Assembly: GCA_024644745.1 (NCBI GenBank)
Contig: JAHEHF010000025.1
Span: 1 to 38,508, forward strand
Direction of reading: 5' to 3'
DNA: 38,508 nucleotides
Source of the DNA: Flavobacteriaceae bacterium
GTDB lineage: Bacteria; Bacteroidota; Bacteroidia; Flavobacteriales; Flavobacteriaceae
Both the position numbers and the translations under genes were made by a program. Positions 18,283-33,362 of this stretch are shown here, piece by piece (within the stretch, counting starts at the first letter, position 1; every line of letters begins with the position of its first letter). The notes beneath the pieces were generated by a model. That model worked only from the letters and a program-made list of their open reading frames with translations. It was not told where the DNA came from and searched no databases.

Positions 18283-18298
18283 CCTGATGCTTATCAGG
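18283..18298. promoter_or_regulatory. Crp/Fnr-type palindrome upstream of the nickel transporter
   Basis: CCTGATgcttATCAGG is a perfect inverted repeat (6-base arms, 4-base spacer) containing the core TGAT-N4-ATCA typical of FNR/DNR-family sites. It shares its core and outer bases with the palindromes at 27761 and 33318. It is centred only 21 bases before the TTG start, so activation from the usual -41.5 position is not possible for that start. Confidence 0.6.
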
Positions 18299-18311
18299 GC
18301 ATAAAATTTTA

Positions 18312-19028
18312 TTGGTTTTGTACTTGCAGATCTCATTTCCGCTTTTCGCCGGACTACTCGCATCCATACTTCATGTGATCATGGGACCCGATCATCTTGC
18401 TGCGGTGATTCCTTTTGCGATAGAATCCAAAAGAAAGGCCTGGAAAATTGGTTTGTTCTGGGGGATTGGCCACATCTTTGGCATGGCTCTCATCGGATTT
18501 TTGTTTGTTTTGTTCAAGACCCTGATCCCTATTGAAAAAATATCAGGCTACAGCGAACAACTCGTGGGGCTCGTATTGATCATGATCGGGTTCTGGGCAT
18601 TTTACAGGATTTTTAAAAATGAACCCCAACACAAACACCTGCACATCCACAGCGAAAACAATCCGATGATCCACAAGCACCCTCATGAACACGAGAAAAA
18701 CAGTTCGCATGAGCACCAGCATCAAAAGAAAGAGAAACAGGGGCTTATCACCTCATTTTCAATTGGAATTCTGCACGGGCTGGCCGGCATCGCTCATTTC
18801 ATCCTTTTTATTCCCATCCTGGGTTTTGAAGACAATTTTGACGCCTCAATTTATATCCTGGGATTTATTATCGGAATCATCATTGCCATGACACTTTTTT
18901 CCGCAATCATGGGCAGTATCTCGAGCTTTGCCAAGAATGAGCACAACCAGACCCTGTTCAAAGGGATCAGACTGGCAGGAGGTATATTTGCCGTAATCAT
19001 AGGAATTTACTGGATGGTTGGCATCTAA
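18312..19028 (+). CDS. Nickel (cobalt) transporter, NicO/UreH-like family, with His-rich loop
   Basis: The 238-residue protein has about six membrane segments. It has the metal-transport signature HVIMGPDHLAAVIPFA in the first segment, WGIGHIFGMAL in the second, and ILHGLAGIAHFILF after the cytoplasmic loop. That loop (about residues 98-145) holds 11 histidines in HKHLHIH, IHKHPHEH and HEHQH clusters and could store or sense metal. The likely job is Ni2+ import for the two hydrogenases encoded next door. The start is TTG at 18312. TTGs at 18318 and 18324 are alternatives, and no ATG fits before the first motif. It is convergent with hypE. Confidence 0.82.
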   Translation: MVLYLQISFPLFAGLLASILHVIMGPDHLAAVIPFAIESKRKAWKIGLFWGIGHIFGMALIGFLFVLFKTLIPIEKISGYSEQLVGLVLIMIGFWAFYRIFKNEPQHKHLHIHSENNPMIHKHPHEHEKNSSHEHQHQKKEKQGLITSFSIGILHGLAGIAHFILFIPILGFEDNFDASIYILGFIIGIIIAMTLFSAIMGSISSFAKNEHNQTLFKGIRLAGGIFAVIIGIYWMVGI

Positions 19029-19046
19029 GGTCCTATACTATTTATG

Positions 19047-20072
19047 TCAGCATATTCTGGGTAATTGCTCCCCTATCAAAGGGCTTACCATGCGTTTCCC
19101 ACCAATGCTGCTTTGCATCACTACTTTACCGGGATGATCCAGGGTGACTGTGCCGATGCATTTTGCGTTGATTCCCTTGGGATCCTTTTTCATTTCAGCC
19201 AGAAAGTCCTCTTCTGCATCTGCCGACACAATGCTTATAAAAACCCCTTCATTTGCGACGAACAAAGGATCCAGGCCCAGCATTTCACAAGCCGCGGCCA
19301 CCTGCTTTTCAATGGGAATATCGTTTTCCCGGATACTGATCCCCATTCCGGTATCACCGGCAATTTCAGACAACACGCTAGCCACACCTCCACGCGTGGG
19401 ATCTCTGAACAAATGGATCTTTTCGCCGAATTTATCCAGCAAATTCATAGCCAGAAAATTGACATTGGTCGTGTCACTTACAATAGAAGATTCAAAATCA
19501 AGTCCTTCCCTCTGCGACATGATGGCCATTCCGTGCTGGGCAATAAAACCATTAACAAAGATCTTGTCTCCTTCTTTGATATTCTGGCTTGAAATATTGG
19601 CTTTAAGGTGCACCTGACCAAAACCCGTAGTATTGATAAATATCTTGTCTCCCTTTCCTCTTTCCACAACCTTTGTGTCACCGGTTATGATCTGTACCCC
19701 GCTCTCATCCGCTGCTGCTTTAACCGCTCTGACAATCTCGATAAAGTCGTCCATCTTCAGCCCTTCTTCCACAATAAAGGCCAAAGAAATGTATTTTGGT
19801 ATGGCCCCGCACATGGCAACATCGTTCACGGTTCCGTTAACTGCGAGTTCTCCGATATTTCCTCCTTTGAAAAAAACCGGAGAGATCACGAAGCTATCCG
19901 TTGAAACCGCCATGTCACCATTGAATCTGACGATGGCCCCGTCGTGTTTTTGATTCAAAAAAGGGTTGTCAAAGGTTGAAAAAATTATTTTATCCAGCAG
20001 GTCCCTGGTCATGATTCCTCCGCTGCCGTGGCCAAGGTTGATCTTGTCAAAATTTAAGCCTTTTGCCTCCAT
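19047..20072 (-). CDS. hypE: HypE, carbamoyl dehydratase for hydrogenase cyanide ligand
   Basis: The 341-residue protein is full length. It has the PurM-like N-terminal start NLGHGSGGIMTRDLL, the segments GAIPKYISLAFIVEEGL and ITGDTKVVERGKGDKIFINTTG, the ATP-binding DPTRGGVASVLSEIA, and the diagnostic C-terminal PRIC. Its last-residue cysteine accepts the carbamoyl group from HypF and is dehydrated to thiocyanate. It is the last gene of the minus-strand hydrogenase run, 3 bases after hypD. It serves both hydrogenases, since no second copy is present here. Confidence 0.96.
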   Translation of the reverse strand: MEAKGLNFDKINLGHGSGGIMTRDLLDKIIFSTFDNPFLNQKHDGAIVRFNGDMAVSTDSFVISPVFFKGGNIGELAVNGTVNDVAMCGAIPKYISLAFIVEEGLKMDDFIEIVRAVKAAADESGVQIITGDTKVVERGKGDKIFINTTGFGQVHLKANISSQNIKEGDKIFVNGFIAQHGMAIMSQREGLDFESSIVSDTTNVNFLAMNLLDKFGEKIHLFRDPTRGGVASVLSEIAGDTGMGISIRENDIPIEKQVAAACEMLGLDPLFVANEGVFISIVSADAEEDFLAEMKKDPKGINAKCIGTVTLDHPGKVVMQSSIGGKRMVSPLIGEQLPRIC

Positions 20073-20075
20073 ATT

Positions 20076-21167
20076 TTATAGCATTGAATGTTCAGAAAAA
20101 TTGTAATAAGCACTGCATGCTCCTTCAGAAGAAACCATGGGGGCACCAAGAGGATTCGCAGGAGAGCATTTCTTTCCGAATTCAGGACATTCAATCGGTT
20201 TTTTAAGACCTTTTAAAACGTCTCCTGCCATGCAAAACGGATTTTCCGCTACCCTGATGCTATCGATTCCGAATCTGTGTTCAGCATCATAATCTTTGAA
20301 TTCTGGAGTGATCTTATATCCGCTGTTCGGAATATTTCCAATACCCCTCCACTCGCGGTCACCTACTTCAAATACCCTTTGAATGACTTTAATGGCTTCA
20401 GGGTTTCCCCCTTCTTTCACTACCCTGGTATACTGGTTTTGTACCCTGGCATCTCCCCTTTCCAACTGATCCACCGCCATCTGGATCCCCTGTACGAGAT
20501 CGAGGGGCTCAAATCCGGTTATGATGATGGGTAACTTATACTTTTCTACCAAAGGATGGTATTCTTTGTAGCCCATAATGGCGCATACATGACCGGCCCC
20601 CAAAAATGCATTGATACTGTTAAATTCATCAGCTAATATCGCTTCCATGGCAGGAGGAACGAGCACGTGTGAAACCAGGATTGAATAATTGCTGAGTCCT
20701 TCCTTTTGAGCGTGCAGCACGGATAAGGCATTGGCAGGAGCCGTTGTTTCAAATCCAACGGCAAAAAACACGACTTCTTTATCCGGGTTATCTCTTGCAA
20801 TATTAACGGCTTCAAGGGGCGAATACAAGATCCTCAGGTCGCCTCCTGATGCCTTGGCCTCCAGCAAACTTTTTTTGCTTCCGGGAACGCGAATCATGTC
20901 CCCAAACGAACAAACCACAACACCTTGATCAAGCAGTTCAATGGCCTTGTCTATAAGGCTTAAAGGGGTAACACAAACAGGACAGCCAGGACCGTGAATC
21001 ATTCTGATCTTTTCAGGTAATAAATCTAAAAGACCGTTCTTCACCAGACCGTGGGTCTGCCCACCACAGATCTCCATGATGTTCCATGGCCTTGTAACTG
21101 ATCTTTCAATCTGTTTCAACACCCTTTGAGTGGCTTCGATATTTCTGTATTCACTTAGATATTTCAT
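20076..21167 (-). CDS. hypD: HypD, Fe(CN)2CO assembly scaffold
   Basis: The 363-residue protein has the invariant motifs of HypD: EICGGQTHG (Cys34), HGPGCPVCVTP (Cys62, Cys65), FFAVGFETTAP, and the C-terminal GKKCSPANPLGAPMVSSEGACSAYYNF containing [4Fe-4S] ligands. HypD with HypC carries the iron while CN- and CO are added. It lies between hypF (43 bases upstream) and hypE (3 bases downstream). Confidence 0.96.
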   Translation of the reverse strand: MKYLSEYRNIEATQRVLKQIERSVTRPWNIMEICGGQTHGLVKNGLLDLLPEKIRMIHGPGCPVCVTPLSLIDKAIELLDQGVVVCSFGDMIRVPGSKKSLLEAKASGGDLRILYSPLEAVNIARDNPDKEVVFFAVGFETTAPANALSVLHAQKEGLSNYSILVSHVLVPPAMEAILADEFNSINAFLGAGHVCAIMGYKEYHPLVEKYKLPIIITGFEPLDLVQGIQMAVDQLERGDARVQNQYTRVVKEGGNPEAIKVIQRVFEVGDREWRGIGNIPNSGYKITPEFKDYDAEHRFGIDSIRVAENPFCMAGDVLKGLKKPIECPEFGKKCSPANPLGAPMVSSEGACSAYYNFSEHSML

Positions 21168-21210
21168 TGGAAATCCATCATTTGGTATCTTTTCGGATCA
21201 AGCTCCTTGC

Positions 21211-23496
21211 TCATGATCCCCTTTTATCGGGCATACAATTCAGATAGTACATCAGCTGTCCGTAAGAAATATTTTCATCATTAGGAGCTAAGTTACGGTT
21301 AAAATATAATTCGAAACGGTTATTGGAAATATCTTTTAGCATGTCGACCAGGGTGGTATTTTGAAATACGCCCCCGCTCAAAGCAATCTTTTTTATTTTT
21401 TTGTTGGATGCAATGTCTGTGACAAGTGTTGCGAGGGTAAACAAAAAATTCAGAATGATCTTTTCCTTTTCCTCCCCTCTCAGAAAGTCCTGATAAAGAT
21501 GCTTCCACAAGGTTGCTGTGCAAACCCTATCACCATCCCCAACCCTGTAATATGCCTTACAATGATCCAAATGTTCATACCGCACCTTGTTTTCAAGTAT
21601 GATCGCAGCTTCACCTTCATAAGTATTGATGTCGCAAAGGTCCAACAGAGAGGCCACGGCGTCAAAGAGCCTTCCGACAGAAGAAGTTTGAAGTGTATTG
21701 GATTTCTTGACCGATCGATAGATTTCCAGCTCCTGCCGGGTAAATTTCTGATGCAAAACATCCTCTGCTGCATCGTCGATCAAGGAGAATAAAGACAACC
21801 TGGGTTCTCGTGCCATCTTATCTCCTGCCAGCCAGTTGAAATATTCAAAATGCGTCAATCGTGCTATTTTTTTATTCTGATAAACAAAGAATTCACCGCC
21901 CCAGATCTGATCATCCTCCCCGTATCCGGTTCCATCCCAAACCACGCCAAGCACGGGTTCTTTCATGTCAAACATTCCATATTCGCCCAAAACAGATGCA
22001 AAATGGGCTTTGTGATGTTGTATACTCCACAGTTCAGAATGGTACTTCAATGACAATTCATGCCCTAAACGTGTACTGTTGTAAGCCGGATGTTTATCGA
22101 CCAGAATGACCTCCGGTTCCTGTTCAAAGATGGCACACATGTTATTTGCTGTCTGAACATATCGCTCGTAAACATCGTACTGATCCAGATTCCCCAAATA
22201 CTGGCTGATGTAAAGAAAATCATTTGGTATAAACGACAAGGTGCTTTTTAAATGACTCCCCATGGCCAGGATCTTTTGAGGGGATGCAGCCTTAAAATCC
22301 ATAAAATTTGGTGCAAATCCCCTGGAGCGTCTGAACATGATATGCTGGCCATTTTTAAAACTGTATTTGACTACTGAATCATCCTGTGGATTTGCAATAG
22401 AAAGATTGTGGTGCAAAAGGTAATCTGTCAGCCCGGAGAGCCATGCTTTGGCATCTTCTTTGTTACTGACAATGGGGCTTCCATGAATATTGCCGCTTGT
22501 GGCCACAACCGGCCCTGAAAGTTCTGCTGACAATAATTGCAAAATCCCGGTGTAGGGCAACATTACGCCAATTTGAGAAAGCTTTGGGGCCAGGGATTCC
22601 AAAGCGAGATTTGATTGAATCCCACGACTTGATAAAATGACAATCGGTTTCTCAGTTGACATCAAAGTCATACGCTGGTCCATGTTCACATCCAGCTCCT
22701 TTTCTAACATTTCAATTGACGGATACAACACAGCGAATGGTTTTTCCGGTCTTTTTTTTAAGGTTCTCAGCCTTTCTATCACAGCAGGATTGGTTGCATC
22801 ACAGCAGATCAAATAACCACCGGTATTTTTTATTGCAATGATCTTTCCCTGTTCTATCAGTTCGCTCATTTTTTTAAAGATCGAATCTCCGGTGACAGGA
22901 ACAATTCCATCCTGAACATGCTCAAGCTCGAGATCAATGCCGCAATCAGGGCAGGTATTGGTTTGAGAATGAAATCTTCTGTCGGCAGGGTCTTCATATT
23001 CCTCCCTGCAAGGGTCGCACATCTTAAAATTTTTCAATGTGGTATTGCCTCTTTCAAAAGGGAAAGTATTGGTAATGGCCCAGCGCGGACCGCAGTTTAC
23101 ACAAGTGGTAAAGGGATATGAAAACCTTCTGTTCCTCTGGTCTGAAATTTCACTTTTACAGGCATCGCACAGGGCAAAATCAGGGGTAAGTGCCAAATTT
23201 AATTTTTGGTTCTTCTCTGATGGTACGATCCTGAAATCTTCAAATGCAAGCTTTTCTATTTCCTGCAGGTCGTGACTTTGAATCTGCGCCATTGGTGGCG
23301 GGCGCTTTACAAGAGATTCACAAAAATCATGGACCGCAGGTTCTGCCCCGGTGAGTAAAATCAATACGCCCTCTTCATTGTTGGAAACATATCCTGTAAG
23401 TCCCAGCTGATTGGCCAAAACATATACAAAGGGTCTGAAACCTACCCCCTGAACACGCCCCTTCAGGATCATTTTGTATGTGCAGTGTTTTACCAA
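21211..23496 (-). CDS. hypF: HypF, carbamoyltransferase
   Basis: The 761-residue protein has all four HypF modules. They are the acylphosphatase domain (LKGRVQGVGFRPFVY, about residues 10-95), two Cx2C-x18-Cx2C zinc motifs (CDACKSE...CVNCG and CDPCREE...CPDCG, about 110-185), a YrdC-like domain (about 205-395) and a Kae1-like domain with IQHHKAHFASVLGE and the terminal ALSGGVFQNT. It makes carbamoyl-adenylate and transfers it to HypE. The start at 23496 is TTG. An ATG at 23472 would clip the first strand of the acylphosphatase fold, so TTG is preferred with moderate certainty. Confidence 0.95.
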   Translation of the reverse strand: MVKHCTYKMILKGRVQGVGFRPFVYVLANQLGLTGYVSNNEEGVLILLTGAEPAVHDFCESLVKRPPPMAQIQSHDLQEIEKLAFEDFRIVPSEKNQKLNLALTPDFALCDACKSEISDQRNRRFSYPFTTCVNCGPRWAITNTFPFERGNTTLKNFKMCDPCREEYEDPADRRFHSQTNTCPDCGIDLELEHVQDGIVPVTGDSIFKKMSELIEQGKIIAIKNTGGYLICCDATNPAVIERLRTLKKRPEKPFAVLYPSIEMLEKELDVNMDQRMTLMSTEKPIVILSSRGIQSNLALESLAPKLSQIGVMLPYTGILQLLSAELSGPVVATSGNIHGSPIVSNKEDAKAWLSGLTDYLLHHNLSIANPQDDSVVKYSFKNGQHIMFRRSRGFAPNFMDFKAASPQKILAMGSHLKSTLSFIPNDFLYISQYLGNLDQYDVYERYVQTANNMCAIFEQEPEVILVDKHPAYNSTRLGHELSLKYHSELWSIQHHKAHFASVLGEYGMFDMKEPVLGVVWDGTGYGEDDQIWGGEFFVYQNKKIARLTHFEYFNWLAGDKMAREPRLSLFSLIDDAAEDVLHQKFTRQELEIYRSVKKSNTLQTSSVGRLFDAVASLLDLCDINTYEGEAAIILENKVRYEHLDHCKAYYRVGDGDRVCTATLWKHLYQDFLRGEEKEKIILNFLFTLATLVTDIASNKKIKKIALSGGVFQNTTLVDMLKDISNNRFELYFNRNLAPNDENISYGQLMYYLNCMPDKRGS

Positions 23497-23526
23497 TATG
23501 GATTTAAAGAAAGTACTGCAACGAAG

Positions 23527-24060
23527 TTAAACATTTCTAGTTTGCAGTTCCATGGTCAGATTCATGATCTGTTCAATTGCTTCAGGTATGGCTTCCTTTA
23601 CCTTTGGAGACAGTTCAAGTGTCATCGGCTTCATTTCTTTTATGGAAATCGTAAAAAGGTACATTTCAGGTTTCGAGTCCATAAGATAAACCGACTCGAT
23701 CAGGTCCTTCAGACCAACATCATGAACACTGAGGGCAGAAGGAAAATCGGCGGCAAATTTAGGCTTGATCAGTGTAATGGTTCCCTCCTCTTTGCCATCC
23801 ATGGTGGCATCCACAAAAATAATTCGGCCATAGGCTTCAAAGCAGCTGAGCAACAAGAAACCCCCGGTACCTCCATCCAAAATGTCTATATTTTCCGGTA
23901 AATCCTTTTTGGTCATTTCCTGGATAAGCTGAACACCAACCCCTTCATCGCCCATGAGATAATTTCCTATACCCAGAATAAGCGTACAGGCTGATTTGTT
24001 CTTTTCAAAAAAGAATGCGTCACTACTGACAGCTATTGAAGCTCTTTCTTCATTCATCAT
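23527..24060 (-). CDS. Hydrogenase maturation endopeptidase (HyaD/HybD/HupD family) for the uptake enzyme
   Basis: The 177-residue protein has the family motifs LILGIGNYLMGDEGVGV (Glu39, Ni ligand), DGGTGGFLLLSCFEAYGRIIFVDATMDG (Asp) and SVHDVGLKDLI (His). It should remove the C-terminal tail of the group 1 large subunit after nickel insertion. A 24-residue N-terminal extension precedes the usual start of the fold. It lies 8 bases after the cytochrome gene in the same run. A second, different protease is encoded beside hoxH, which fits one protease per large subunit. Confidence 0.92.
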   Translation of the reverse strand: MMNEERASIAVSSDAFFFEKNKSACTLILGIGNYLMGDEGVGVQLIQEMTKKDLPENIDILDGGTGGFLLLSCFEAYGRIIFVDATMDGKEEGTITLIKPKFAADFPSALSVHDVGLKDLIESVYLMDSKPEMYLFTISIKEMKPMTLELSPKVKEAIPEAIEQIMNLTMELQTRNV

Positions 24061-24068
24061 AATTTTAT

Positions 24069-24788
24069 CTAAATATGTTTACCTTTTTTTAAACGTTCCT
24101 TTCTGACAAATTTATACCCGCTGATCATAGAGGATGATTCTCCCCTGCCCTCGAGCCAGTCATGGTAAAAAACCAGGTAAACATGAACAAGTGTGAATAT
24201 GACAAATAACCAGGTGGCCAGATGGTGTATGAATCGGGTGGTCATCTCATCGCCTATCAGGTAAGGCACCCAGGAAAATAATTTAGGCAACCACCATCCG
24301 GATGTTGGAGCATAGAGTCCAAAGCCCGTAAATATCTGAACCAAGGCTAATAAGAACAAAAGGATATAAGATAATGATGCCAGATAGTTATGGCCCACAC
24401 TAATATTCTTAAGGACTTGCTTTTCTTCATTTTGCACCAGTATATCTATCTTAAGAACGTGTTTAATGTTCTCCCATTGCTTTTTCTTCAAAGGAATGAA
24501 GGCCCTCCAACTGGAATAATAATTTCCATTAAATGCCCAATAAATTCTTACCACAAAATTGAGAAGAAACACATAGGCTGTAATAAAATGAATCATTCTG
24601 ACCGTACCAAACCAGTAGGAATCTACTGCCTCAGCTGTAGACATCAGGACCGGGGGATTAGCAATAATTAAACCTGTTATAGCCAATACCAAGATGCAGA
24701 ATGCATTCAACCAGTGAAAAATCCTGACAGGAAGTTCCCAAACAAGAACCCTTTTAAAGTCATAAGTTTTACTCAAATAGCTATTCAT
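24069..24788 (-). CDS. Ni/Fe-hydrogenase b-type cytochrome subunit
   Basis: The 239-residue protein has four membrane segments with histidines placed as in HupC/HyaC diheme cytochromes: RIFHWLNAFCILVLAITG, MIHFITAYVFLLNFVVRIYW, YILLFLLALVQIFTGFGLY and FIHHLATWLFVIFTLVHVYLVFYHD. The ending GRGESSSMISGYKFVRKE is typical of the family. It anchors the periplasmic hydrogenase and passes electrons to quinone. It lies 17 bases after the large-subunit gene. Confidence 0.94.
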   Translation of the reverse strand: MNSYLSKTYDFKRVLVWELPVRIFHWLNAFCILVLAITGLIIANPPVLMSTAEAVDSYWFGTVRMIHFITAYVFLLNFVVRIYWAFNGNYYSSWRAFIPLKKKQWENIKHVLKIDILVQNEEKQVLKNISVGHNYLASLSYILLFLLALVQIFTGFGLYAPTSGWWLPKLFSWVPYLIGDEMTTRFIHHLATWLFVIFTLVHVYLVFYHDWLEGRGESSSMISGYKFVRKERLKKGKHI

Positions 24789-24805
24789 AGTTTTTGATGA
24801 TTTAA

Positions 24806-26539
24806 TTAGACGTCACAACTTCCTACATTCGTCACACGTGAAATATGATTTCCATGTTCATCATATAAATGCACCGCACATGCCAGACAAGGGTCAAAAG
24901 AGTGTACGGTACGAATGATCTCCAAAGGAAGATTCGGATCGGCTACAGGTGTATCAATTAAAGCAGACTCATAGGCAGATCTTTGTCCTTTTGGATCTCT
25001 TGGTGAAGCATTCCAGGTAGTAGGCACCACCTGCTGATAATTCTCTGTTTTTCCGTCTTTGATTTTGATCCAGTGGGCCAGGCCACCGCGAGGTGCTTCG
25101 GTAAAACCAACCCCTTTTGCCTCAGCGGGCCATTTAGAAGGATCCCATAAATCCATATTGGCCATGCGGGTATCCCCATTCTTTATGTTTAAAAGCAACT
25201 GGTCATAGAATTCCATGGTCCAGTTTGCCACAAGCTGAGATTCAATTCCTCTTGCCGCTGTTCTTCCCAGAGTGGAGAACAAGGCTTCCACAGGAACATT
25301 CAAATGAGAGAGCGCACCATTAACCGCGTCCTGTATTTCTTTGTTGCCCCTTCCATAGCCTACCAAAAGCCTTGACAAAGGACCAACTTCCATGGCCTGT
25401 CCCTTCCAGCGGGGTGTTTTTACAAAACTGTATTTTTGTTCAACGTCCAGATGCTCATACGGGGGCTGAGGTCCTGAATAATTTATGTTGGTTTCCCCTT
25501 CCCAAGGATGCCTTCCTGTTTCAGCACCTTCCTTGTAATTGTCATACCAGGAATTGTTGACAAACTCTTCAATGTCTCCATTTCGATGGTCAACATCATG
25601 AACCTTAGACAGATCCCTGTTCAGTATAACCCCTTGTGGAAATTTAAAATTACTCGGATCTCCATAGCCATTCACAGGGAAGTCTCCGTACGACATATAA
25701 TTTCCGACCCCTTTACCTATGGCTCCCCAGTCTTTGTAGAAAGATGCGATGGCCAAAAGATCAGGAATATAGACTTGCTCAATGAAATTCTTTCCTTCCT
25801 TGAGTAATTTACCCACATGGGCCAGTCGTTCTGCATTCAATCCGCCGGTACTGTTTTCATTGATGGCGCAAGCCATACCTCCAACCAGATAATTCGGATG
25901 CGGGTTCTTACCTCCTAAAATGGTATGGACCTTTACGATTTCCTTTTGCCATTCCAGGGCTTCCAGATAATGTGCGACTCCTAATAAATTTACCGCTGCA
26001 GGTAATTTCATCTGGGGGTGCCCCCAATAGCCATTGGCAAAAATACCGAGCTGACCACTGTCAACAAATTTTTGGATTCGTTTTTGGATGTCACTGAAAT
26101 AACCGGGAGAACTCTTAGGCCAGTTGGAAATACTTTGTGCAATTTTGGAAGTTTCAACCGGATCTGCGCTTAGTGCATTGACCACATCTACCCAATCCAG
26201 CGCATGAAGATGATAAAAATGAACTGCATGATCATGCATATACAAAGCACCTTCCATGATGTTTCGTACCATTTCGGCATTGGGGGGAATCGCTATTCCC
26301 AAAGCATCTTCTACTGCTCTGACCGAGCTAATCGCATGCACTGTGGTACAAACACCACAAGTCCTTTGAACAAAGGCCCAAACGTCTCTCGGATCTCTTC
26401 CTTTAACGATGTTCTCAAGTCCGCGCACCATGGTACTGGAACTAAAGGCATCAACAATTTTCCCCTCTTTTATTTCAGCTTCTATTCTTAAATGTCCTTC
26501 GATCCTGGTAATCGGATCAACCACTATTCTGTTTGCCAT
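24806..26539 (-). CDS. [NiFe] uptake hydrogenase large subunit (group 1)
   Basis: The 577-residue protein has the L1 motif RTCGVCTTVHA (Cys61, Cys64) and the L2 motif DPCLACAVH (Cys551, Cys554), the four Ni-Fe ligands. A 20-residue tail after His557 is the predicted cleavage peptide of the adjacent protease. The signatures VRGLENIVKGRDPRDVWAFVQ and GYGRGNKEIQDAV are typical of periplasmic membrane-bound enzymes. It is exported together with the Tat-bearing small subunit, encoded 6 bases upstream. Placement in group 1d follows from the small subunit's cysteines and not from this chain. Confidence 0.96.
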   Translation of the reverse strand: MANRIVVDPITRIEGHLRIEAEIKEGKIVDAFSSSTMVRGLENIVKGRDPRDVWAFVQRTCGVCTTVHAISSVRAVEDALGIAIPPNAEMVRNIMEGALYMHDHAVHFYHLHALDWVDVVNALSADPVETSKIAQSISNWPKSSPGYFSDIQKRIQKFVDSGQLGIFANGYWGHPQMKLPAAVNLLGVAHYLEALEWQKEIVKVHTILGGKNPHPNYLVGGMACAINENSTGGLNAERLAHVGKLLKEGKNFIEQVYIPDLLAIASFYKDWGAIGKGVGNYMSYGDFPVNGYGDPSNFKFPQGVILNRDLSKVHDVDHRNGDIEEFVNNSWYDNYKEGAETGRHPWEGETNINYSGPQPPYEHLDVEQKYSFVKTPRWKGQAMEVGPLSRLLVGYGRGNKEIQDAVNGALSHLNVPVEALFSTLGRTAARGIESQLVANWTMEFYDQLLLNIKNGDTRMANMDLWDPSKWPAEAKGVGFTEAPRGGLAHWIKIKDGKTENYQQVVPTTWNASPRDPKGQRSAYESALIDTPVADPNLPLEIIRTVHSFDPCLACAVHLYDEHGNHISRVTNVGSCDV

Positions 26540-26545
26540 GATCGT

Positions 26546-27682
26546 TTAATTTTCTTCGTTCTTTTTTAATTTGTCTTCATTAATTTTTCCTCGAGTGTAG
26601 CGTCCCTTCAGTTCATTATACTTAGAGATATTCGCTGCAATCGTGTGCGCTGTCAATCCTGCTGCCACAACCCCCGTAGCGATGATACCAACATCGTCGG
26701 CAGAACTCTCTATTCCAAATCCGGGGGTATTGGAAAGGCGCTTGTAAAATGGTCCATTATCCCAGAAATTGGCCTCACTACAACCGATGCATCCATGTCC
26801 TGATTCGATAGGGAAGCTCGTTCCGTTGTTCCACTTCATGCTTCCGCAGGCATTATACGTCGTTGGGCCCTTACATCCCAGTTTGTATAAACAATATCCC
26901 TCTTTGGCATGAATATCATCAAATGATTCTGCAAAAAGTCCCGCATCAAAATAAGGCCGTCTATAACAGGTATCATGCACCCTTTTGCCATAGAAAGCTT
27001 TGGGACGCCCTATTCTGTCGAGCTCCGGTAATCTTTCAAAAGTGACATAGTGCACAATTAGGGCTGCCATGGCCTCACCAATGGGCGGACAACCAGGCAT
27101 TTGTATAATGGGTTTGTTTTTGATGATCTTGTGGATTGGAGTAGCTCCTGTAGGATTCGGTTTTGCTCCCTGTACGCATCCGTTGGTGGCACAACTGCCC
27201 CAGGCGATAATGGCTTTTGCTCCGGCCGCGGCCTCCTTCAGATGATCTAATGCCGTTTTTCCTGCAATGGTGCAATACACTCCGTTAGCACCGGTAGGTA
27301 CCGAACCTTCAACGCATAAAATATATTCCCCATGGTATTTTTCCATGGTATCGTGTTTGGCCGCCTCTGCCTGATGCCCTGATGCAGCCATCAGTGTTTC
27401 GGTGTAATCGAGTGAAACATTGTCCAGAATAATGTCAGCCACCATAGGATGGTCGGAACGGATAAAGGACTCACTGCAACAGGTACATTCCTGATAATGT
27501 TCCCAGATGATTGGCAGCCTGTGCTTTGTTTCCAGAGATTTTGCCACCTGCCCTATCATGGAGTGATCCAGGCCCATATATGCCGTGATAAAAGCGGCAA
27601 ACTTCATGAAATCTCTTCGACTGTAACCTTTTCTTTTTGCACTTTGGTAATAGGTCTCCCGGACCGCATCTTTTGTTGCCAT
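26546..27682 (-). CDS. [NiFe] uptake hydrogenase small subunit, six-Cys proximal cluster, Tat-exported
   Basis: The 378-residue chain (ATG at 27682; an ATG at 27721 would only add 13 odd residues) has a twin-arginine signal SRRDFMKFAAF at residues 21-31. Proximal-cluster cysteines are Cys66, 68, 69, 164, 169 and 198. These sit exactly 49 above C17, C19, C20, C115, C120 and C149 of mature Ralstonia/Cupriavidus HoxK as I recall that numbering, so the two supernumerary cysteines of the O2-tolerant [4Fe-3S] centre are present. Distal ligands His236, Cys239, Cys264 and Cys270 also fit. A C-terminal membrane helix (about 331-351) anchors it. Confidence 0.95.
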   Translation of the reverse strand: MATKDAVRETYYQSAKRKGYSRRDFMKFAAFITAYMGLDHSMIGQVAKSLETKHRLPIIWEHYQECTCCSESFIRSDHPMVADIILDNVSLDYTETLMAASGHQAEAAKHDTMEKYHGEYILCVEGSVPTGANGVYCTIAGKTALDHLKEAAAGAKAIIAWGSCATNGCVQGAKPNPTGATPIHKIIKNKPIIQMPGCPPIGEAMAALIVHYVTFERLPELDRIGRPKAFYGKRVHDTCYRRPYFDAGLFAESFDDIHAKEGYCLYKLGCKGPTTYNACGSMKWNNGTSFPIESGHGCIGCSEANFWDNGPFYKRLSNTPGFGIESSADDVGIIATGVVAAGLTAHTIAANISKYNELKGRYTRGKINEDKLKKNEEN

Positions 27683-27731
27683 ATCAGTAGTTTTAAGCGT
27701 CAGAACGTATATTTTAAACACAATTAAGCAT

Positions 27732-27739
27732 TAAATTTA
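27732..27739 (-). promoter_or_regulatory. Candidate -7 box of the uptake hydrogenase operon
   Basis: Read on the minus strand, TAAATTTA matches five of six fixed positions of TAnnTTTG. It begins exactly 29.5 bases from the centre of the palindrome at 27761-27776. The transcript would start near 27728 with a leader of about 46 bases. The region is very AT-rich, so a partial match alone would be weak; the shared geometry with hypB and hoxF is what supports it. Confidence 0.45.
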
Positions 27740-27760
27740 AAATAATTAAATAGCTGATTA

Positions 27761-27776
27761 CATGATTATTATCATG
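27761..27776. promoter_or_regulatory. Crp/Fnr-type palindrome between the uptake-hydrogenase operon and hypA
   Basis: CATGATtattATCATG is a perfect inverted repeat with the FNR-family core TGAT-N4-ATCA. It is centred 86 bases before the small-subunit start and 66 bases before hypA. TAnnTTTA-type boxes lie 29.5 bases away on the hydrogenase side and 28.5 bases away on the hypA side (27797-27804). One bound dimer could therefore serve both divergent promoters. Confidence 0.7.
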
Positions 27777-27834
27777 AATTTTTATTATAATTTAATTATA
27801 TTTATAGCTTGTTTTTTCTGAAAATAGTATCAAA

Positions 27835-28176
27835 ATGCATGAATTGTCAATTGTTATGGGGATACTGAAGATTGCAGAAAACGAGGCCGAAAAAGCCGGT
27901 GCGACAAGAATTGACCGCATTGAACTTGAAATCGGCAGTTTGGCAGGGGTCGATCAGGACGCTTTGGATTTTGTCTGGTCAGGTGCCGTGAAGGGTACGA
28001 TTTTAGAAAATGCAAAAAGAAAAATCTTCTTAATCGAAGGTAAGGGACAATGCATGGAGTGTGATACAGTTTTCTCCTTAAACCATGTTTATGATCCCTG
28101 CCCCAACTGCCAAAACTACCTCAAAGGAGTACTTCAGGGTAAAGAGCTGAGAGTCAAGGCACTTGAAGTCGCTTGA
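27835..28176 (+). CDS. hypA: HypA, hydrogenase nickel insertion protein
   Basis: The 113-residue protein starts with the nickel-binding MHELSIV (His2) and carries the structural zinc site Cys73/Cys76 and Cys89/Cys92 (CMEC...CPNC). Length is normal for HypA. It works with HypB to place Ni into both large subunits. It is the first gene of the plus-strand arm and diverges from the uptake-hydrogenase operon across 152 bases. The hox genes separate it from hypB and hypC. Confidence 0.96.
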   Translation: MHELSIVMGILKIAENEAEKAGATRIDRIELEIGSLAGVDQDALDFVWSGAVKGTILENAKRKIFLIEGKGQCMECDTVFSLNHVYDPCPNCQNYLKGVLQGKELRVKALEVA

Positions 28177-28216
28177 ATTGTTCATAACTACATCCTTCAT
28201 GTTTGGCTCAGATCGT

Positions 28217-28243
28217 CAAAAATCTTCAAAACAGTGATTTTTG
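28217..28243. terminator. Hairpin between hypA and hoxF
   Basis: CAAAAATC (28217-28224) and GATTTTTG (28236-28243) are exact 8-base inverted arms around an 11-base loop, 40 bases after the hypA stop. The stem is AT-rich and has no U-run, so terminator strength would be low. It could be an attenuator. Its right arm overlaps the Fnr-like box of hoxF, so the two readings compete. Confidence 0.3.
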
Positions 28244-28246
28244 TCA
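28235..28246. promoter_or_regulatory. Degenerate Crp/Fnr-type box upstream of hoxF
   Basis: TGATttttGTCA differs from TGAT-N4-ATCA at one base. Its centre lies 29.5 bases before the TAAATTTT box at 28270, the same distance as at hypB and the uptake operon. The palindrome is 46 bases before the ATG at 28292. Confidence 0.45.
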
Positions 28247-28269
28247 TACTATATCACCAAAAAATTTAG

Positions 28270-28277
28270 TAAATTTT
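28270..28277 (+). promoter_or_regulatory. Candidate -7 box of hoxF
   Basis: TAAATTTT matches five of six fixed positions of TAnnTTTG. It predicts a transcript start near 28281, which lies after the TTG at 28241. This supports the ATG at 28292 as the true hoxF start. Confidence 0.4.
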
Positions 28278-28291
28278 CGTCTTACTTTTCA

Positions 28292-30124
28292 ATGATTATG
28301 GCTGCTCTAAAGAACCCCCCGCCAAAATCCTCTTTATTGGATATCCTGTGGGATATTCAGAACAAAAGAAGGTACATAGCTCCTGATGACATTACTAAAA
28401 TTTCTAATGAATTTAATATCTCCCGAACTGAGCTGGAGGGCATTATTTCATTTTATCATTTTTTTCATACCCGGCATGCTGGTCAATACACCATCTATTT
28501 GAATAACGCGATCATTTCCAAAAACCAACACTACGAAGCCGTTAAAAAAGCATTCGAAAAGGCCATTGGCGTTTCGATTGGGAATACCAGTGAAGACGGA
28601 AAGTTCGGACTTTTCGAAACTTCGTGCATTGGCCTAAGTGATCAGGAAACCGCTGCTTTGATCAATTTTCAGGCCTTTACAAACCTCACACCATTCAAGG
28701 TGAAAAAAATAGTCAGGCAATTAAGGAATGGCATATCACCTAATGAATTGACTGACCTTCCTAAAAATAATATTCGCTATACACCTGCTCCTGATAAAAC
28801 TATTTTTTTAAAGCCCTATTTAGCGGGATCCGCTTTAAAAAAACTTAAAAATCTAAAACCACAGGAACTCATTACTTTGATAAAAGAATCCAAACTTGCG
28901 GGACGAGGTGGTGCCTTTTTTCCCACAGGCATGAAATGGCAATTTTGTAAAAACAACATTTCAACGCAAAAATATGTGATTTGTAATGCTGATGAAGGAG
29001 AACCCGGTACTTTCAAAGACAGGGTATTAATCAACAAATATCCCGGACTTATGCTGGAAGGAATGGCTATGGCAGGCTATGCGGTCGGGGCCAATAAGGG
29101 ATATATTTATCTTAGAGCTGAGTACTTTTACCTCAAAGAAAAAATTGAAAATAAAATCAAGGAATTTACTGAAAAGGGATTCCTTGGAAAAAACATCTGT
29201 AACATCCAGGGATTTGATTTTGACATCCAGATATATATGGGTGCAGGTGCTTATGTATGCGGTGAAGAAACTGCTCTAATCAGTTCCATGGAAGGCAAAC
29301 GAGGAGAACCTTCAACCAAAGAATATTTTCCCGTAGAAAAAGGGCTTCATGGACAGCCCACCATCATCAACAATGTGGAAACCCTTTGCGCTGTTCCCAG
29401 AATAATTGAATTGGGATTGAAAAAGTACTTGAAAATTGGAACGGAGGCTACGAAAGGCACTAAATTGTTAAGCGTATCGGGAGATTGCAAAAAACCGGGT
29501 ATTTATGAAATTGAATGGGGTATGAAACTTAAAACCTTCCTAGACCTCATCGAAGCAAAAGATCCATATCTCGTTCTTTTTAACGGTTATGCCGGAGAAT
29601 GTTTGTCTTCAGCAGATTTTAACCGTGAAATTTCAGGAGAAAACCTTTTGGCCGAACACGTTCAATTCGAATGGAATGATCCAATTGAATACGCTCGTAA
29701 AATGAGTGCCATTGGTCTGAGAAGCGGAGGGTCATTTATGGTATTTAACAGCGATAGAGACTTTATGCAAATCTTTCAGAATATCAATAATTTCTTTGTC
29801 TCGGAATCTTGTGGAATTTGTGCACCGTGCAGGACCGGCAATTTTTTACTTTCTAAAAAACTGAATAAAATAAAACTTTGCCATGCCGACAATTCAGATT
29901 TGGATGACATCAAGGAATGGAGCACAATTATTAAGCAATCCAGTCGCTGCGGACTTGGTAAAACCTCGACCAATTGCTTGCTGACAGCCATGCTGAAATT
30001 TCCAAATGAATTTACCAAATGCATTTTGGCCAAAAGTGATATCAATGAGGCGTTTAAACTAGAAAATGTTGTTACAGAATATGACAATATCATCAACGAA
30101 ATTGAAAACATTCATGAACAATAA
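28292..30124 (+). CDS. hoxF: HoxF, NAD(H)-binding diaphorase subunit of NAD-linked hydrogenase (NuoE-NuoF fusion)
   Basis: From the ATG at 28292 the protein has 610 residues. Residues 1 to about 150 are NuoE-like. From about 200 on it is NuoF-like: GRGGAFFPTGMKW, CNADEGEPGTFKDR (FMN/NADH), GAGAYVCGEETALISSMEGKRGEPS, and the [4Fe-4S] ligands Cys507, 510, 513 (CGICAPC) and Cys553 (RCGLG). The NuoE-like part keeps only Cys112 (CIGLSDQ) of the usual four [2Fe-2S] ligands. A TTG at 28241 gives a longer frame but falls in the predicted promoter. It transfers electrons between FMN and NAD+. Confidence 0.92.
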   Translation: MIMAALKNPPPKSSLLDILWDIQNKRRYIAPDDITKISNEFNISRTELEGIISFYHFFHTRHAGQYTIYLNNAIISKNQHYEAVKKAFEKAIGVSIGNTSEDGKFGLFETSCIGLSDQETAALINFQAFTNLTPFKVKKIVRQLRNGISPNELTDLPKNNIRYTPAPDKTIFLKPYLAGSALKKLKNLKPQELITLIKESKLAGRGGAFFPTGMKWQFCKNNISTQKYVICNADEGEPGTFKDRVLINKYPGLMLEGMAMAGYAVGANKGYIYLRAEYFYLKEKIENKIKEFTEKGFLGKNICNIQGFDFDIQIYMGAGAYVCGEETALISSMEGKRGEPSTKEYFPVEKGLHGQPTIINNVETLCAVPRIIELGLKKYLKIGTEATKGTKLLSVSGDCKKPGIYEIEWGMKLKTFLDLIEAKDPYLVLFNGYAGECLSSADFNREISGENLLAEHVQFEWNDPIEYARKMSAIGLRSGGSFMVFNSDRDFMQIFQNINNFFVSESCGICAPCRTGNFLLSKKLNKIKLCHADNSDLDDIKEWSTIIKQSSRCGLGKTSTNCLLTAMLKFPNEFTKCILAKSDINEAFKLENVVTEYDNIINEIENIHEQ

Positions 30125-31382
30125 AGTTAAAATCAATATCGATGGTAAAGATTACCAGGTATTAGAAAACAAAAGGCTCGTTGATGCAGCCAAAGAAAAC
30201 GGGATTTATATTCCAACACTTTGCCATTTTCGAGAGATCAATCCCTCTATGGGAACATGCAGGATTTGCACGGTAATCGTCAACGGGAAATTTACCGCCA
30301 GTTGCACCACAAAGGTACAGGAAGGGATGAGCGTTGAAATAAACACAGAGGAACTCATTGATACCCGCAAGGCCATAGTTGAAATGTTGTTTTCAGAAGG
30401 CAATCATTTCTGTCCATCGTGTGAAAAAAGTGGCAATTGTGACCTTCAGAATCTGGCCTATGACATGGGTATTACTGTATCCAGATTTCCACATGCCTTC
30501 AGCAATAAATTTGTTGACTTTAACTCTGAGAGAATGATTATGGAATCCAACAGGTGCATCTTATGCAAGCGCTGTGTGGAAGAAATTCAAACGACCGATA
30601 ATAAAAATATCTTTTCTTTTGTGAATCGTGGAATCAAAACAAGGGTTCATATTGATTATGAGGAAGAAGGTAAACTCAGTCAGGCTGAAGCGATACATGC
30701 CATGAATTTATGCCCTGTTGGTGCCATTCTAATCAAAGGAATGATTCATAAAGAACCTTTCGGTGAGAGAAAATATGATATTTTAGGAAAAATAAAACAG
30801 ACCGAATCAAATGACTCCCCCGCTGTCAAAAACGAAAATGAAAAATTTATCGTAGCAACAACTTCACTTGCCGGATGTTTTGGCTGTCATATGTCTCTAT
30901 TGGATATTGATACTGATATTCTGGATATGCTTGAGATCATAGAATTCAATAAATCACCTCTTACTGATATAAAGAAATTTACCAAGCGCTGTCATGTTGG
31001 ACTCATAGAAGGAGGATGTGCCAATACTGAAAACATAGAAGTGCTGAAAGAATTCAGAAAAAAATGTGATATTCTCGTTGCCATCGGTGAATGCGCCGTA
31101 ATGGGGGGTATTCCAGCCATGCGAAATTTCGTGTCTTTAAAAGAATGCCTTGAAGAAGCTTACATTCATGGAATAACCAGTGAAATTGGTGCTAATGTAA
31201 TCCCAAATCATGAAGACATTCCAAAAATTCTGAACAATGTTTACCCTTGTAATGAGGTGGTTAAAATAGACTATTATATTCCGGGTTGCCCTCCTAATGC
31301 CAATCATATCTGGAAGGTTGTTAAAAGTATTTTACTCGGTAAAGAGTATCCTGTTATGCATGAAGAATTTAAATATGACTAA
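30114..31382 (+). CDS. HoxU-HoxY fusion: diaphorase electron-transfer subunit joined to hydrogenase small subunit
   Basis: One 422-residue frame holds two normally separate subunits. HoxU-like part: [2Fe-2S] ligands Cys37, 49, 52, 64; His98, Cys100, 103, 109; and CILCKRC (148, 151, 154) with Cys200, followed by a linker near 220-245. HoxY-like part: proximal [4Fe-4S] ligands Cys255, Cys258 (CFGCHMSLLD), Cys327 (GEC) and Cys392 (PGCPPNANHIW). No stop or internal restart separates them. It overlaps the hoxF stop by 11 bases. An ATG at 30066 gives a longer frame, but the product starting at 30114 resembles HoxU/NuoG N-termini. The fusion would wire the NADH side directly to the Ni-Fe side. Confidence 0.9.
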   Translation: MNNKVKINIDGKDYQVLENKRLVDAAKENGIYIPTLCHFREINPSMGTCRICTVIVNGKFTASCTTKVQEGMSVEINTEELIDTRKAIVEMLFSEGNHFCPSCEKSGNCDLQNLAYDMGITVSRFPHAFSNKFVDFNSERMIMESNRCILCKRCVEEIQTTDNKNIFSFVNRGIKTRVHIDYEEEGKLSQAEAIHAMNLCPVGAILIKGMIHKEPFGERKYDILGKIKQTESNDSPAVKNENEKFIVATTSLAGCFGCHMSLLDIDTDILDMLEIIEFNKSPLTDIKKFTKRCHVGLIEGGCANTENIEVLKEFRKKCDILVAIGECAVMGGIPAMRNFVSLKECLEEAYIHGITSEIGANVIPNHEDIPKILNNVYPCNEVVKIDYYIPGCPPNANHIWKVVKSILLGKEYPVMHEEFKYD

Positions 31383-31393
31383 TCCTTACTGAA

Positions 31394-32845
31394 ATGAGTC
31401 AAAAAATAGTAATAGACCCTGTAACAAGAGTTGAGGGTCACGGAAAGGTAACCATCCATTTGGATGAACAAAACAGAGTTAAAGAATCATTTTTTCATAT
31501 CATAGAATTTAGAGGCTTTGAAAAATTTATACAGGGCCATCCCTATTGGGAGGCTCCAGTCATGGTTCAGCGTTTATGCGGTATATGTCCTGTTAGTCAT
31601 CATCTGGCAGCTGCTAAAGCTATTGATCAAATCATTGGGTTAGAACCTGAAGAATTATCTTTGCCCACTCAGAAAATTAGAAAATTATTACATTTCGGTC
31701 AGATATTTCAGTCTCATGCACTTCATTTTTTTTATCTGGCCTCTCCCGATCTTTTATTTGGCTTCGATGCAGCACCAACAACAAGAAATGTAGTTGAAGT
31801 ATCGATGAGATACCCTGAACTGGCCAAAAAAGGAATCTTAATGCGCAAATTCGGGCAGGAAATTATAAAAACGATTGCCGGTAAACGCATTCATGGTATT
31901 TCAACAAGCCCAGGAGGTGTACATAAAAAAATAAGTGCACAGGAACGTGATTATTTTCTAAATGGAAAAGATATCCCTTCAATAGACGCTATGATTGAAT
32001 GGTCAAGAGAAATAATTGAATTCGTCAAAGACTATTACATAAAAAATGAAAACTGGATCAACGACTTTGCGCACTACCCTTCTGGCCATCTCGGTCTGGT
32101 CGACAAAAAAACCGGAAATCTTGAACTTTATGATGGCTATTTAAGGGCCATTGATTCTGATGGAAATAAAACCCTTGACGATATCGAATCAGATGACTAT
32201 CAAAATTATTTTTATGAAGGCGTTGAAAAATGGTCCTATTTAAAATTCCCATATTTAAAGCACTTAGGTAAAGAAAACGGATGGAACAGGGTAGGTCCTT
32301 TAGCCCGACTTAATGTTTGTGAAGGGATCTCAACTCCCCTGGCGGCATATGAAAGGCTGCAATTTTTAAAAATCTCAGGTGGCAAAACCAATAATAGAAC
32401 CATGTATTCTCACTGGGCACGACTTATTGAATTGTTGCATTGTGCTGAATTAATGAAAGATTTACTTGAAGATGATGACCTTTTAAGTAATGATTTGATG
32501 AGAAGAGGAGAAAGAAGAAATGAAGGAATTGGAATTATTGAAGCACCCAGAGGAACTTTGATCCATCATTATGAGGTTGACGACAAAGACCGGATAACAA
32601 GGTGTAACCTGATTGTATCCACTACACACAATAATGAAGCCATGAACAAGGCAGTGAACTGGGTGGCCAATAATGTTATCGATGGTCAGCAAAAAATTAC
32701 TGAGAGTATGCTCAACCAGGTTGAAGTAGCCATCAGGGCTTACGACCCCTGCCTGAGCTGTGCAACACATGCTTTAGGACAAATGCCTTTAGAGGTATCA
32801 ATTTATGACCATCTTGGAAATTTACGCGATGTCAGAACCAGGTAA
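31394..32845 (+). CDS. hoxH: HoxH, NAD-linked [NiFe] hydrogenase large subunit (group 3d-like)
   Basis: The 483-residue protein has L1 QRLCGICPVSHHLA (Cys62, Cys65) and L2 DPCLSCATHALG (Cys453, Cys456). A 24-residue tail after His459 should be removed by the HoxW-like protease. The sequence is of the cytoplasmic bidirectional type, with no export signal. It oxidises H2 and passes electrons through the HoxY and HoxU domains to HoxF and NAD+. It starts 11 bases after hoxUY. Group 3d is inferred from the accompanying diaphorase genes. Confidence 0.96.
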   Translation: MSQKIVIDPVTRVEGHGKVTIHLDEQNRVKESFFHIIEFRGFEKFIQGHPYWEAPVMVQRLCGICPVSHHLAAAKAIDQIIGLEPEELSLPTQKIRKLLHFGQIFQSHALHFFYLASPDLLFGFDAAPTTRNVVEVSMRYPELAKKGILMRKFGQEIIKTIAGKRIHGISTSPGGVHKKISAQERDYFLNGKDIPSIDAMIEWSREIIEFVKDYYIKNENWINDFAHYPSGHLGLVDKKTGNLELYDGYLRAIDSDGNKTLDDIESDDYQNYFYEGVEKWSYLKFPYLKHLGKENGWNRVGPLARLNVCEGISTPLAAYERLQFLKISGGKTNNRTMYSHWARLIELLHCAELMKDLLEDDDLLSNDLMRRGERRNEGIGIIEAPRGTLIHHYEVDDKDRITRCNLIVSTTHNNEAMNKAVNWVANNVIDGQQKITESMLNQVEVAIRAYDPCLSCATHALGQMPLEVSIYDHLGNLRDVRTR

Positions 32846-33308
32846 TAAAAAAATGCTGATTATAGGAATTGGCAACTCAGGAAGAAGTGATGACGGACTT
32901 GGATGGCTGTTAGTCGATGCAATAAGAAAGAAATTTTTAAATATTGACTTGGTATACAGATACCAATTGCAGATAGAAGATGCTGATCTGATCTCAGATT
33001 ATCATACAGTCATCTTTGCAGATGCCACTAAAAAGAGCACTGAAGAAGGGTTTTTCTTTGAGTTATGCCGTCCGAATCAAGGTCTTGGCCTTAGCTCACA
33101 TATGCTCGAACCCGAAACTGTGCTTTGGCTTGAAAATCAATTGTTTAAAAAGAAGCCTAATGCTTTTGTTTTAGGAATTGAAGGTGAAAAATGGGAACTG
33201 TCTCTCAAGCCCAGCCAATCGGGTATGTCAAATTTACAAAGGGCTATTGACTTTATTTTAAAAATGGTTCCCATCCTTTTAAAAAGCAAATACCCTCAAA
33301 TGGTATAA
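32829..33308 (+). CDS. hoxW: HoxW-like hydrogenase maturation protease
   Basis: The 159-residue protein has the endopeptidase fold starting MLIIGIGNSGRSDDGLGWLLVDAI. The usual Glu of the nickel-binding GDEG is Asp (SDDG), as in group 3 proteases. It continues with TVIFADATKKS (Asp) and LSSHMLEPETVLWLE (His). It should cleave HoxH. The ATG at 32829 overlaps hoxH by 17 bases; ATGs at 32805 and 32853 are also in frame. It differs clearly from the protease at 23527-24060, which serves the uptake enzyme. Confidence 0.85.
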   Translation: MSEPGNKKMLIIGIGNSGRSDDGLGWLLVDAIRKKFLNIDLVYRYQLQIEDADLISDYHTVIFADATKKSTEEGFFFELCRPNQGLGLSSHMLEPETVLWLENQLFKKKPNAFVLGIEGEKWELSLKPSQSGMSNLQRAIDFILKMVPILLKSKYPQMV

Positions 33309-33317
33309 ATAGCCATT

Positions 33318-33333
33318 CCTGATGAAAATCATG
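33318..33333. promoter_or_regulatory. Crp/Fnr-type box upstream of hypB
   Basis: CCTGATgaaaATCATG has the exact core TGAT-N4-ATCA at 33320-33331 and shares outer bases with the palindromes at 18283 and 27761. It is centred 59.5 bases before the hypB ATG and 29.5 bases before a perfect TAnnTTTG box. This is the geometry of a class-II activator at about -41. Confidence 0.7.
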
Positions 33334-33354
33334 TGCTTAGATATTTAAATTCCT

Positions 33355-33362
33355 TATTTTTG
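33355..33362 (+). promoter_or_regulatory. Predicted -7 promoter element of hypB
   Basis: TATTTTTG is an exact TAnnTTTG match, predicting a transcript start near 33366 and a leader of about 19 bases. Separate transcription of hypBC from the hox genes would keep nickel chaperones available for both hydrogenases. Confidence 0.55.

Follow-up and report, generated by a model that had tools for sequence, protein, structure and literature searches.

A conserved palindrome and box upstream of hydrogenase operons in Flavobacteriaceae and the Crp/Fnr-family proteins that may read it

The window analyzed here, a stretch of 38,508 bases (contig C2, bases 1-38508) from a 3,144,300-base genome of the Flavobacteriaceae (G000; 138 contigs, 95.8% complete), carries two hydrogenase gene sets organized divergently around a shared intergenic region (Table 1). 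The hya hydrogenase genes and several accessory genes are leftward-transcribed, and hypA and the hox hydrogenase genes are rightward-transcribed, followed by hypB and a hypC-like reading frame; the hypA product scores 86.3 bits, below its NCBIfam cut-off of 88.1. The subject of this report is a promoter element in these intergenic regions, consisting of a palindrome, TGAT-N4-ATCA in its exact form, followed by a TAnnTTTG-like box, and previously proposed to be the target of a Crp/Fnr-family protein that turns on hydrogen metabolism. The source organism is treated as a Lutimonas and, with two same-genus genomes (G025 and G253), makes up the three Lutimonas genomes referred to below.

The whole window contains exact palindromes only at 14590, 18285, 27763, and 33320, confirming the four copies of the original prediction, one of them within ruvC. 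The three intergenic copies share outer bases as had been claimed, all fitting CMTGATN4ATCAKG, and the one-mismatch copy reported ahead of hoxF, TGATTTTTGTCA, is also found. The described geometry holds, with a box beginning 29.5 bp from the palindrome center (23 bases after the palindrome) at hypB (6/6 fixed positions), hoxF (5/6), and hya (5/6). The number of palindromes is unremarkable, with 4 seen against 1.67 expected and at least 4 in 7 of 100 shuffles of the window, and the genome as a whole has 261 sites in 3.1 Mb, or ∼3.2 per 38.5 kb. The count alone is within chance; the case for function rests on conservation and geometry. The copy in ruvC looks like a chance match.

Table 1. Palindromes, boxes, and genes in the window
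Feature	Position	Strand	Basis
Palindrome TGATAGGTATCA inside ruvC	14590..14601		exact match
Palindrome TGATGCTTATCA upstream of nickel/cobalt transporter-like gene	18285..18296		exact match; no box at offset 23
hya operon: hyaA, hyaB, hyaC (cytochrome b), hyaD protease, hypF, hypD, hypE	19047..27721	-	NCBIfam matches; operon structure predicted from spacing
TAAATTTA, TAnnTTTG-like -7 box (5/6) for hya operon, 23 bases past palindrome	27732..27739	-	offset-23 peak in relatives
Palindrome TGATTATTATCA between divergent hyaA and hypA; strongest conserved site	27763..27774		exact match and relatives
TATATTTA, TAnnTTTG-like box (5/6) facing hypA, offset 22 not 23	27797..27804	+	sequence
hypA, hoxF, hoxU-hoxY fusion, hoxH, protease	27835..33308	+	NCBIfam matches
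TGATTTTTGTCA, one-mismatch palindrome before hoxF, overlapping mechanical ORF start 28241	28235..28246	+	sequence and relatives
TAAATTTT, hoxF box (5/6)	28270..28277	+	sequence and relatives
Palindrome TGATGAAAATCA before hypB	33320..33331	+	exact match
TATTTTTG, hypB box (6/6)	33355..33362	+	sequence and relatives
hypB	33385..34248	+	TIGR00073
hypC-like open reading frame (ORF), 88 codons including stop, begins MCLSIPGQ	34279..34542	+	by-eye reading

Conservation of the sites is seen in HoxH loci from the 14 HoxH-bearing genomes among 299 Flavobacteriaceae and in 80 loci from GTDB contigs, with eight duplicate loci dropped, as were matches below the identity floor or too close to a locus end. 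Gene starts were set by tblastn, and the 300 bases upstream were scanned (a slightly longer region in the strict scan). When one mismatch is tolerated, sites occur in 27/28 regions upstream of hyaA, 29/39 of hypA, 54/72 of hoxF, 9/38 of hypB, and 7/16 of the nickel gene; with the strict pattern TGA[TC]N4[AG]TCA, in which two Y/R changes are allowed, the corresponding numbers are 25/28, 26/39, 57/72, 5/38, and 4/16. The divergent hyaA and hypA genes share one region and its sites and are therefore one test, not two. A blind scan of 3,328 palindromes (256 words by 13 gaps) per upstream set ranks ATGA-N6-TCAT first at hyaA (24/28, with a mean of 0.2 at other gaps), hoxF (32/72, mean 0.7), and hypA (22/39, mean 0.1), and does not rank it at the top at hypB or the nickel gene. 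The TGA-N6-TCA spacing found at hyaA, hoxF, and hypA is the Crp/Fnr register.

Sites upstream of orthologous genes are thus kept in relatives for hya, hypA, and hoxF, and the expectation of conservation fails for the other two positions. L. halocynthiae and L. saemankumensis are among the species with sites at their loci. At hypB, the sequence and box are as originally described, but the strict site is confined to Lutimonas-like loci (5/38), and control there is lineage-specific. The 18285 palindrome has no counterpart at the same place in the 15 other orthologous regions, the Lutimonas orthologues of the nickel gene (L019 and L020) have no site even with one mismatch, and there is no box; it was rejected as a regulon member on these grounds and is probably not functional in this role. 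Two of the hox products are fusions (28241-31382), a NuoE-NuoF-like one in the case of HoxF and one of HoxU with a small subunit resembling HoxY in the next gene. The mechanical hoxF ORF (28241-30124) begins within the operator, and alignments of relatives start at about residues 13 to 29; the true start is likely the ATG at 28292.

The geometry is conserved as well: boxes matching at least 5/6 positions, counted over 37 offsets past the palindrome, peak at 23, with 31/61 hoxF-region sites (5 more at offset 24 and at most 4 at any other offset), 12/26 hyaA sites, and 5/5 hypB-region sites, the last with 6/6 boxes throughout. The hypA sites have such a box at offset 23 in 8/26 cases and at offset 22 in 6 more. 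The full TAnnTTTG composite, allowed any of 29 gaps from 8 to 36 in the three Lutimonas genomes, gives 36 matches, of which 24 have gap 22 (gap 22 counted from TCAT equals offset 23 counted after ATCA). The 29.5-bp spacing is a family rule. Each of the three genomes also has a longer-gap composite, at G000:C84:27876-27927 (gap 30), G253:C15:163555-163606 (30), and G025:C1:807016-807068 (31).

The box is presumably the Bacteroidota -7 element, which would place the palindrome near -41, and the class II-like placement originally proposed is borne out insofar as the site-to-box distance is fixed in relatives before both hydrogenase operons. The half-site, however, is not the canonical FNR/DNR TTGAT to which the original prediction referred. 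Among the same 77 genomes, the ATGA composite has 562 matches versus 75 for the TTGA composite and 27 for the reversed control; TTGAT is accordingly rejected as the family motif, and the half-site is ATGAY.

The composite, defined as the palindrome plus a TAnnTTT box (with mechanical ORF checks on its matches), occurs 9, 25, and 22 times in G000, G025, and G253, respectively, and the reversed pattern occurs 1, 0, and 0 times. All but one of the 56 Lutimonas composites have gap 22 rather than 23, and 52 of 55 re-examined are outside ORFs of at least 100 amino acids (aa), the exceptions being in L172, L176, and L019; for L172 a shorter ORF in relatives suggests a false upstream start. At least one composite is present in 249/299 Flavobacteriaceae genomes. 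A phylum-wide draw of 118 genomes has 36 with a match, comprising 11/11 Flavobacteriaceae, 2/2 from another family in the same order (with 6 and 9 matches), and 23/105 others (1 to 3 matches each).

The genes behind these composites are varied. Pyruvate:ferredoxin oxidoreductase is downstream of a composite in all three Lutimonas genomes, and further Lutimonas targets include other 2-oxoacid:ferredoxin oxidoreductases, pyruvate phosphate dikinase, a molybdopterin oxidoreductase, an MtrC-like outer-membrane cytochrome, a paired-CXXCH cytochrome, alanine dehydrogenase/transhydrogenase, and an Rrf2 regulator; no nitrogen-oxide gene is conspicuous among the downstream genes read. HoxH is present in only 14/299 genomes, and with so many other genes behind the composite, a hydrogen-specific regulon was rejected: the sites before both hydrogenase operons and the low-oxygen targets stand, but the original framing is too narrow for a general, family-wide regulon. 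The palindrome-plus-box element is real, conserved, and part of a broad low-oxygen-type regulon, with binding, activation, and signal predicted from sequence. Two individual loci are of separate interest. In L. halocynthiae, an outer-membrane cytochrome resembling MtrC/MtrF (L167:2671-3780) follows a composite and hints at extracellular electron transfer. At L179:1086-2828, a composite precedes a protein of 580 aa that ends in a cNMP_binding domain and is FAD-binding-like by eye in its N-terminal part.

As originally stated, no Crp/Fnr gene is in the window; a profile search finds three PF13545 proteins above the cut-off in the genome, on contigs C130, C110, and C76. The first, CrpA (C130:84354-85040), is a 229-aa FNR-like protein, and its gene diverges from that of a FixI-like ATPase and adjoins the cbb3-oxidase genes ccoS-ccoNO-ccoP-ccoG (ccoS read by eye); the ccoS-ccoNO promoter has a site, ATATGATAATTATCATGT, and a 5/6 box, TTAATTTG. 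In an alignment of 31 CrpA sequences (the 30 best-scoring loci plus L057, not a random draw), with the Escherichia coli FNR sequence and its ligand numbering, cysteines align with FNR C20, C23, and C122 in 31/31 each, and two extra cysteines are present in 31/31 and 29/31. The place of FNR C29 is occupied by N in 25/31 and S in 6/31, leaving three of the four FNR ligands. PDB chain 9qlt gives the same alignment of the CrpA C-x2-C pair and later cysteine, and a single-sequence structure model (mean pLDDT 35.7) is too low in confidence to judge whether the cysteines meet. In G115, a composite with gap 23 (G115:C11:927063-927153) ends ∼50 bp before the CrpA gene, suggesting self-regulation there, and a CrpA homologue with 49% identity (L057:17426-18106) is near the hox cluster of Flavobacteriaceae bacterium UBA2765.

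The second protein, RecCrp (C110), is 343 aa long and combines Response_reg, cNMP_binding, and HTH_Crp_2 domains. Its gene adjoins that of a histidine kinase with a PAS domain, for which FixL chains are the nearest solved structures (E 2.9e-12). The histidine of the haem-pocket region, the haem ligand in FixL, is aligned, and the kinase may bind haem. The third protein (C76) has a different helix and is encoded beside membrane-protein genes resembling the YeeE/YedE sulphur-transport family (by eye).

CrpA homologues (E 1e-20 or better) are in 241/299 genomes and RecCrp is in 138/299. For comparison with composite number, strong CrpA was set at E below 1e-50 and RecCrp at E 1e-60 or better, with seven candidates scored per genome, such that some absences may be false. 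The mean number of composites per genome, uncorrected for shared ancestry, is 14.2 with both proteins (n = 82), 6.0 with CrpA only (97), 6.9 with RecCrp only (56), and 1.0 with neither (64); genomes with zero composites number 0/82, 8/97, 0/56, and 42/64, respectively. Genomes of at least 2.5 Mb show the same order in composites per Mb (3.78, 1.83, 2.08, and 0.37), and the five "neither" genomes that carry at least three sites are 73 to 90% complete. Nine of the 14 HoxH genomes have both proteins, three have CrpA only, one has RecCrp only (G143), and one has neither (G048, 82% complete); a hoxF-region site is present in all three CrpA-only genomes (L023, L025, and L028) and in G143 (L021). A ccoN composite is present in 4/4 CrpA-only genomes examined (G017, G265, G044, and G059), with one at hemN in 3/4, and also in G143. 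CrpA as sole regulator is weakened by the site-bearing genomes that have RecCrp alone, and because both proteins correlate with motif number, the single regulator of the original prediction is not established.

Lutimonas has a second arrangement of sites that bears on the choice between the two proteins. TGAYN4RTCA-N10-TGAYN4RTCA occurs 10, 21, and 18 times in the three Lutimonas genomes and once each in 2/75 other genomes, with the reversed control matching once in each of two genomes. Three such tandem pairs surround RecCrp in each Lutimonas genome; in G000 (contig C110) the paired palindromes are exactly 22 bp apart, at L185:9192-9225, 10173-10206, and 11950-11983. The 49 pairs include 34 in which a box of at least 5/6 stands at offset 23 past the proximal site (the strand with the better box being chosen), and 48 are outside same-strand ORFs of at least 120 aa, the class of ORF checked. 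Among the genes downstream of the pairs are Usp and Hsp20 (Pfam, own-genome examples) and, judged by eye, those of dodecin-like and secreted proteins. TGAY is preceded by T in 101/196 tandem half-sites versus 7/236 at hydrogenase sites, where A is present in 202/236. FNR prefers T-flanked half-sites, and the residue before the recognition-helix Arg is S in FNR and I in 31/31 CrpA and 27/27 other RecCrp proteins (from the 30 best-scoring loci, again not a random draw); the helix in 3/3 Lutimonas RecCrp proteins is GIAKETLTR, with T before Arg. The tandem pairs look like a Lutimonas-specific second regulon around RecCrp.

The probable explanation, if by no great measure, is that the palindromes are class II operators of a Crp/Fnr activator, most likely CrpA sensing low oxygen or redox state; here we infer binding, activation, transcript starts, the signal, and the preference for CrpA over RecCrp. 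A dimer would bind ATGAY-N4-RTCAT centered ∼41 bp before the transcript start and contact RNA polymerase on the Bacteroidota -7 element TAnnTTTG, and hya-hypFDE, hypA-hox, and (in Lutimonas) hypBC would be turned on in concert with the cbb3 oxidase and the genes of ferredoxin-based fermentation. CrpA would sense low oxygen or redox state through its conserved cysteines, and RecCrp perhaps also acts on class II sites at low oxygen. CrpA is favored for the A-flanked hydrogenase sites of this organism because the Lutimonas RecCrp helix is changed and T-flanked tandem sites surround RecCrp. Several observations weigh against this explanation. Eight genomes with strong CrpA only have no composite, the CrpA proteins lack the third N-terminal FNR cysteine, and a CrpA-like gene is near the hox cluster in only 2/94 loci, with one close homologue (L057). 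Strict sites are missing from 15/72 hoxF and 13/39 hypA regions, and some composite targets have no evident oxygen link (a porin, MlaE, a DUF4440 protein, and several unassigned lipoproteins). Lastly, G143, with RecCrp and no strong CrpA, still has sites at hoxF and hypA, and RecCrp can therefore presumably serve the site.

A broader proposal, which falls somewhat short of an even chance, is that the family has its own low-oxygen regulon, with the operator ATGAY-N4-RTCAT positioned 22 bases before TAnnTTT and two paralogous activators, CrpA and RecCrp. The I-to-T change in Lutimonas RecCrp would have gone with a move to T-flanked tandem sites 22 bp apart, forming a second, stress-type regulon, with the hydrogenases staying with CrpA.

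An unlikely alternative is that the same class II element is read in this organism by RecCrp, phosphorylated by the neighboring FixL-like PAS kinase at low oxygen. Composite number correlates with RecCrp as well as with CrpA, RecCrp is present in all 9 tested site-bearing genomes without strong CrpA (the ninth being G194), and the kinase PAS domain with its aligned histidine would suit such a signal; the changed AKETLTR helix and the T-rich flanks of the tandem half-sites around RecCrp, so different from the A-flanked hydrogenase sites, argue against it in Lutimonas. Binding of both CrpA and RecCrp at the hydrogenase sites, integrating redox or oxygen and kinase signals, is less likely again. 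The additive composite numbers and the predominance of both proteins among HoxH genomes are consistent with it, but genome size and shared descent could also produce additivity, the 299 genomes not being independent, and the Lutimonas helix change favors separate target sets there. That the window palindromes are functionless chance or coding-bias words is very improbable: their ordinary count permits it, and it holds for 14590 and probably for 18285, but conservation and the constant spacing of the box at hya, hypA, and hoxF contradict it for 27763 and 28235, as does the family-wide composite excess for the element in general. Use of the palindrome by a repressor of another family is the most improbable, since although a palindrome located near -41 might equally obstruct polymerase, nothing direct points to a repressor, and the Crp/Fnr register, the fixed 23-base distance expected for activation, and the tracking of composite number with Crp/Fnr genes all argue against it.

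Flavobacteria, an abundant group, are mostly regarded as aerobes, and little is known of how their hydrogenases, ferredoxin-based fermentation, and high-affinity respiration are turned on. With an operator of defined sequence and constant spacing, the regulon can be read from any genome of the family, and two candidate regulators can be named. The altered Lutimonas helix, taken with the T-flanked tandem sites, provides a case in which a change in the DNA code of a transcription factor can be tested directly. No title or abstract met in the searchable literature describes this operator or regulon. In Flavobacterium psychrophilum, cbb3 oxidase and haem-synthesis genes are up in oxygen limitation, and the words Crp and Fnr do not occur in the main text of that report (PMC9723704).

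Flavobacterial Crp/Fnr homologues have been loosely placed near MalR of Bacteroides by tree position and a MalR matrix, with carbon sensing proposed (PMC8510549); MalR is also a Bacteroidota Crp/Fnr protein, but the targets here are mainly low-oxygen functions and not carbon use. The DNR, NnrR, and HcpR regulons (PMC1274295) likewise represent Crp/Fnr control of anaerobic genes, but the site here is not TTGAT-N4-ATCAA, and no nitrogen-oxide gene is prominent among the targets read. CrpA resembles E. coli FNR in its Crp/Fnr fold (PF00027 and PF13545), its C-x2-C pair and later cysteine, and its E...R recognition helix, and the regulon resembles that of FNR in class II placement and anaerobic targets. 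The differences are in the half-site (TTGAT for FNR versus ATGAY), the residue before the helix Arg (S versus I), the third N-terminal cysteine (replaced by N or S in CrpA), the two extra conserved cysteines of CrpA, and the Bacteroidota-type -7 box. The rhizobial FixL-FixJ-FixK system (fixNOQP and fixGHIS) is similar in having a FixL-like PAS kinase by a receiver protein, a Crp-family output, and control of a cbb3 oxidase. However, FixJ (receiver plus LuxR-type) and FixK are separate proteins, whereas the receiver and Crp parts are fused in RecCrp, and CrpA is an additional, separate, cysteine-bearing protein.

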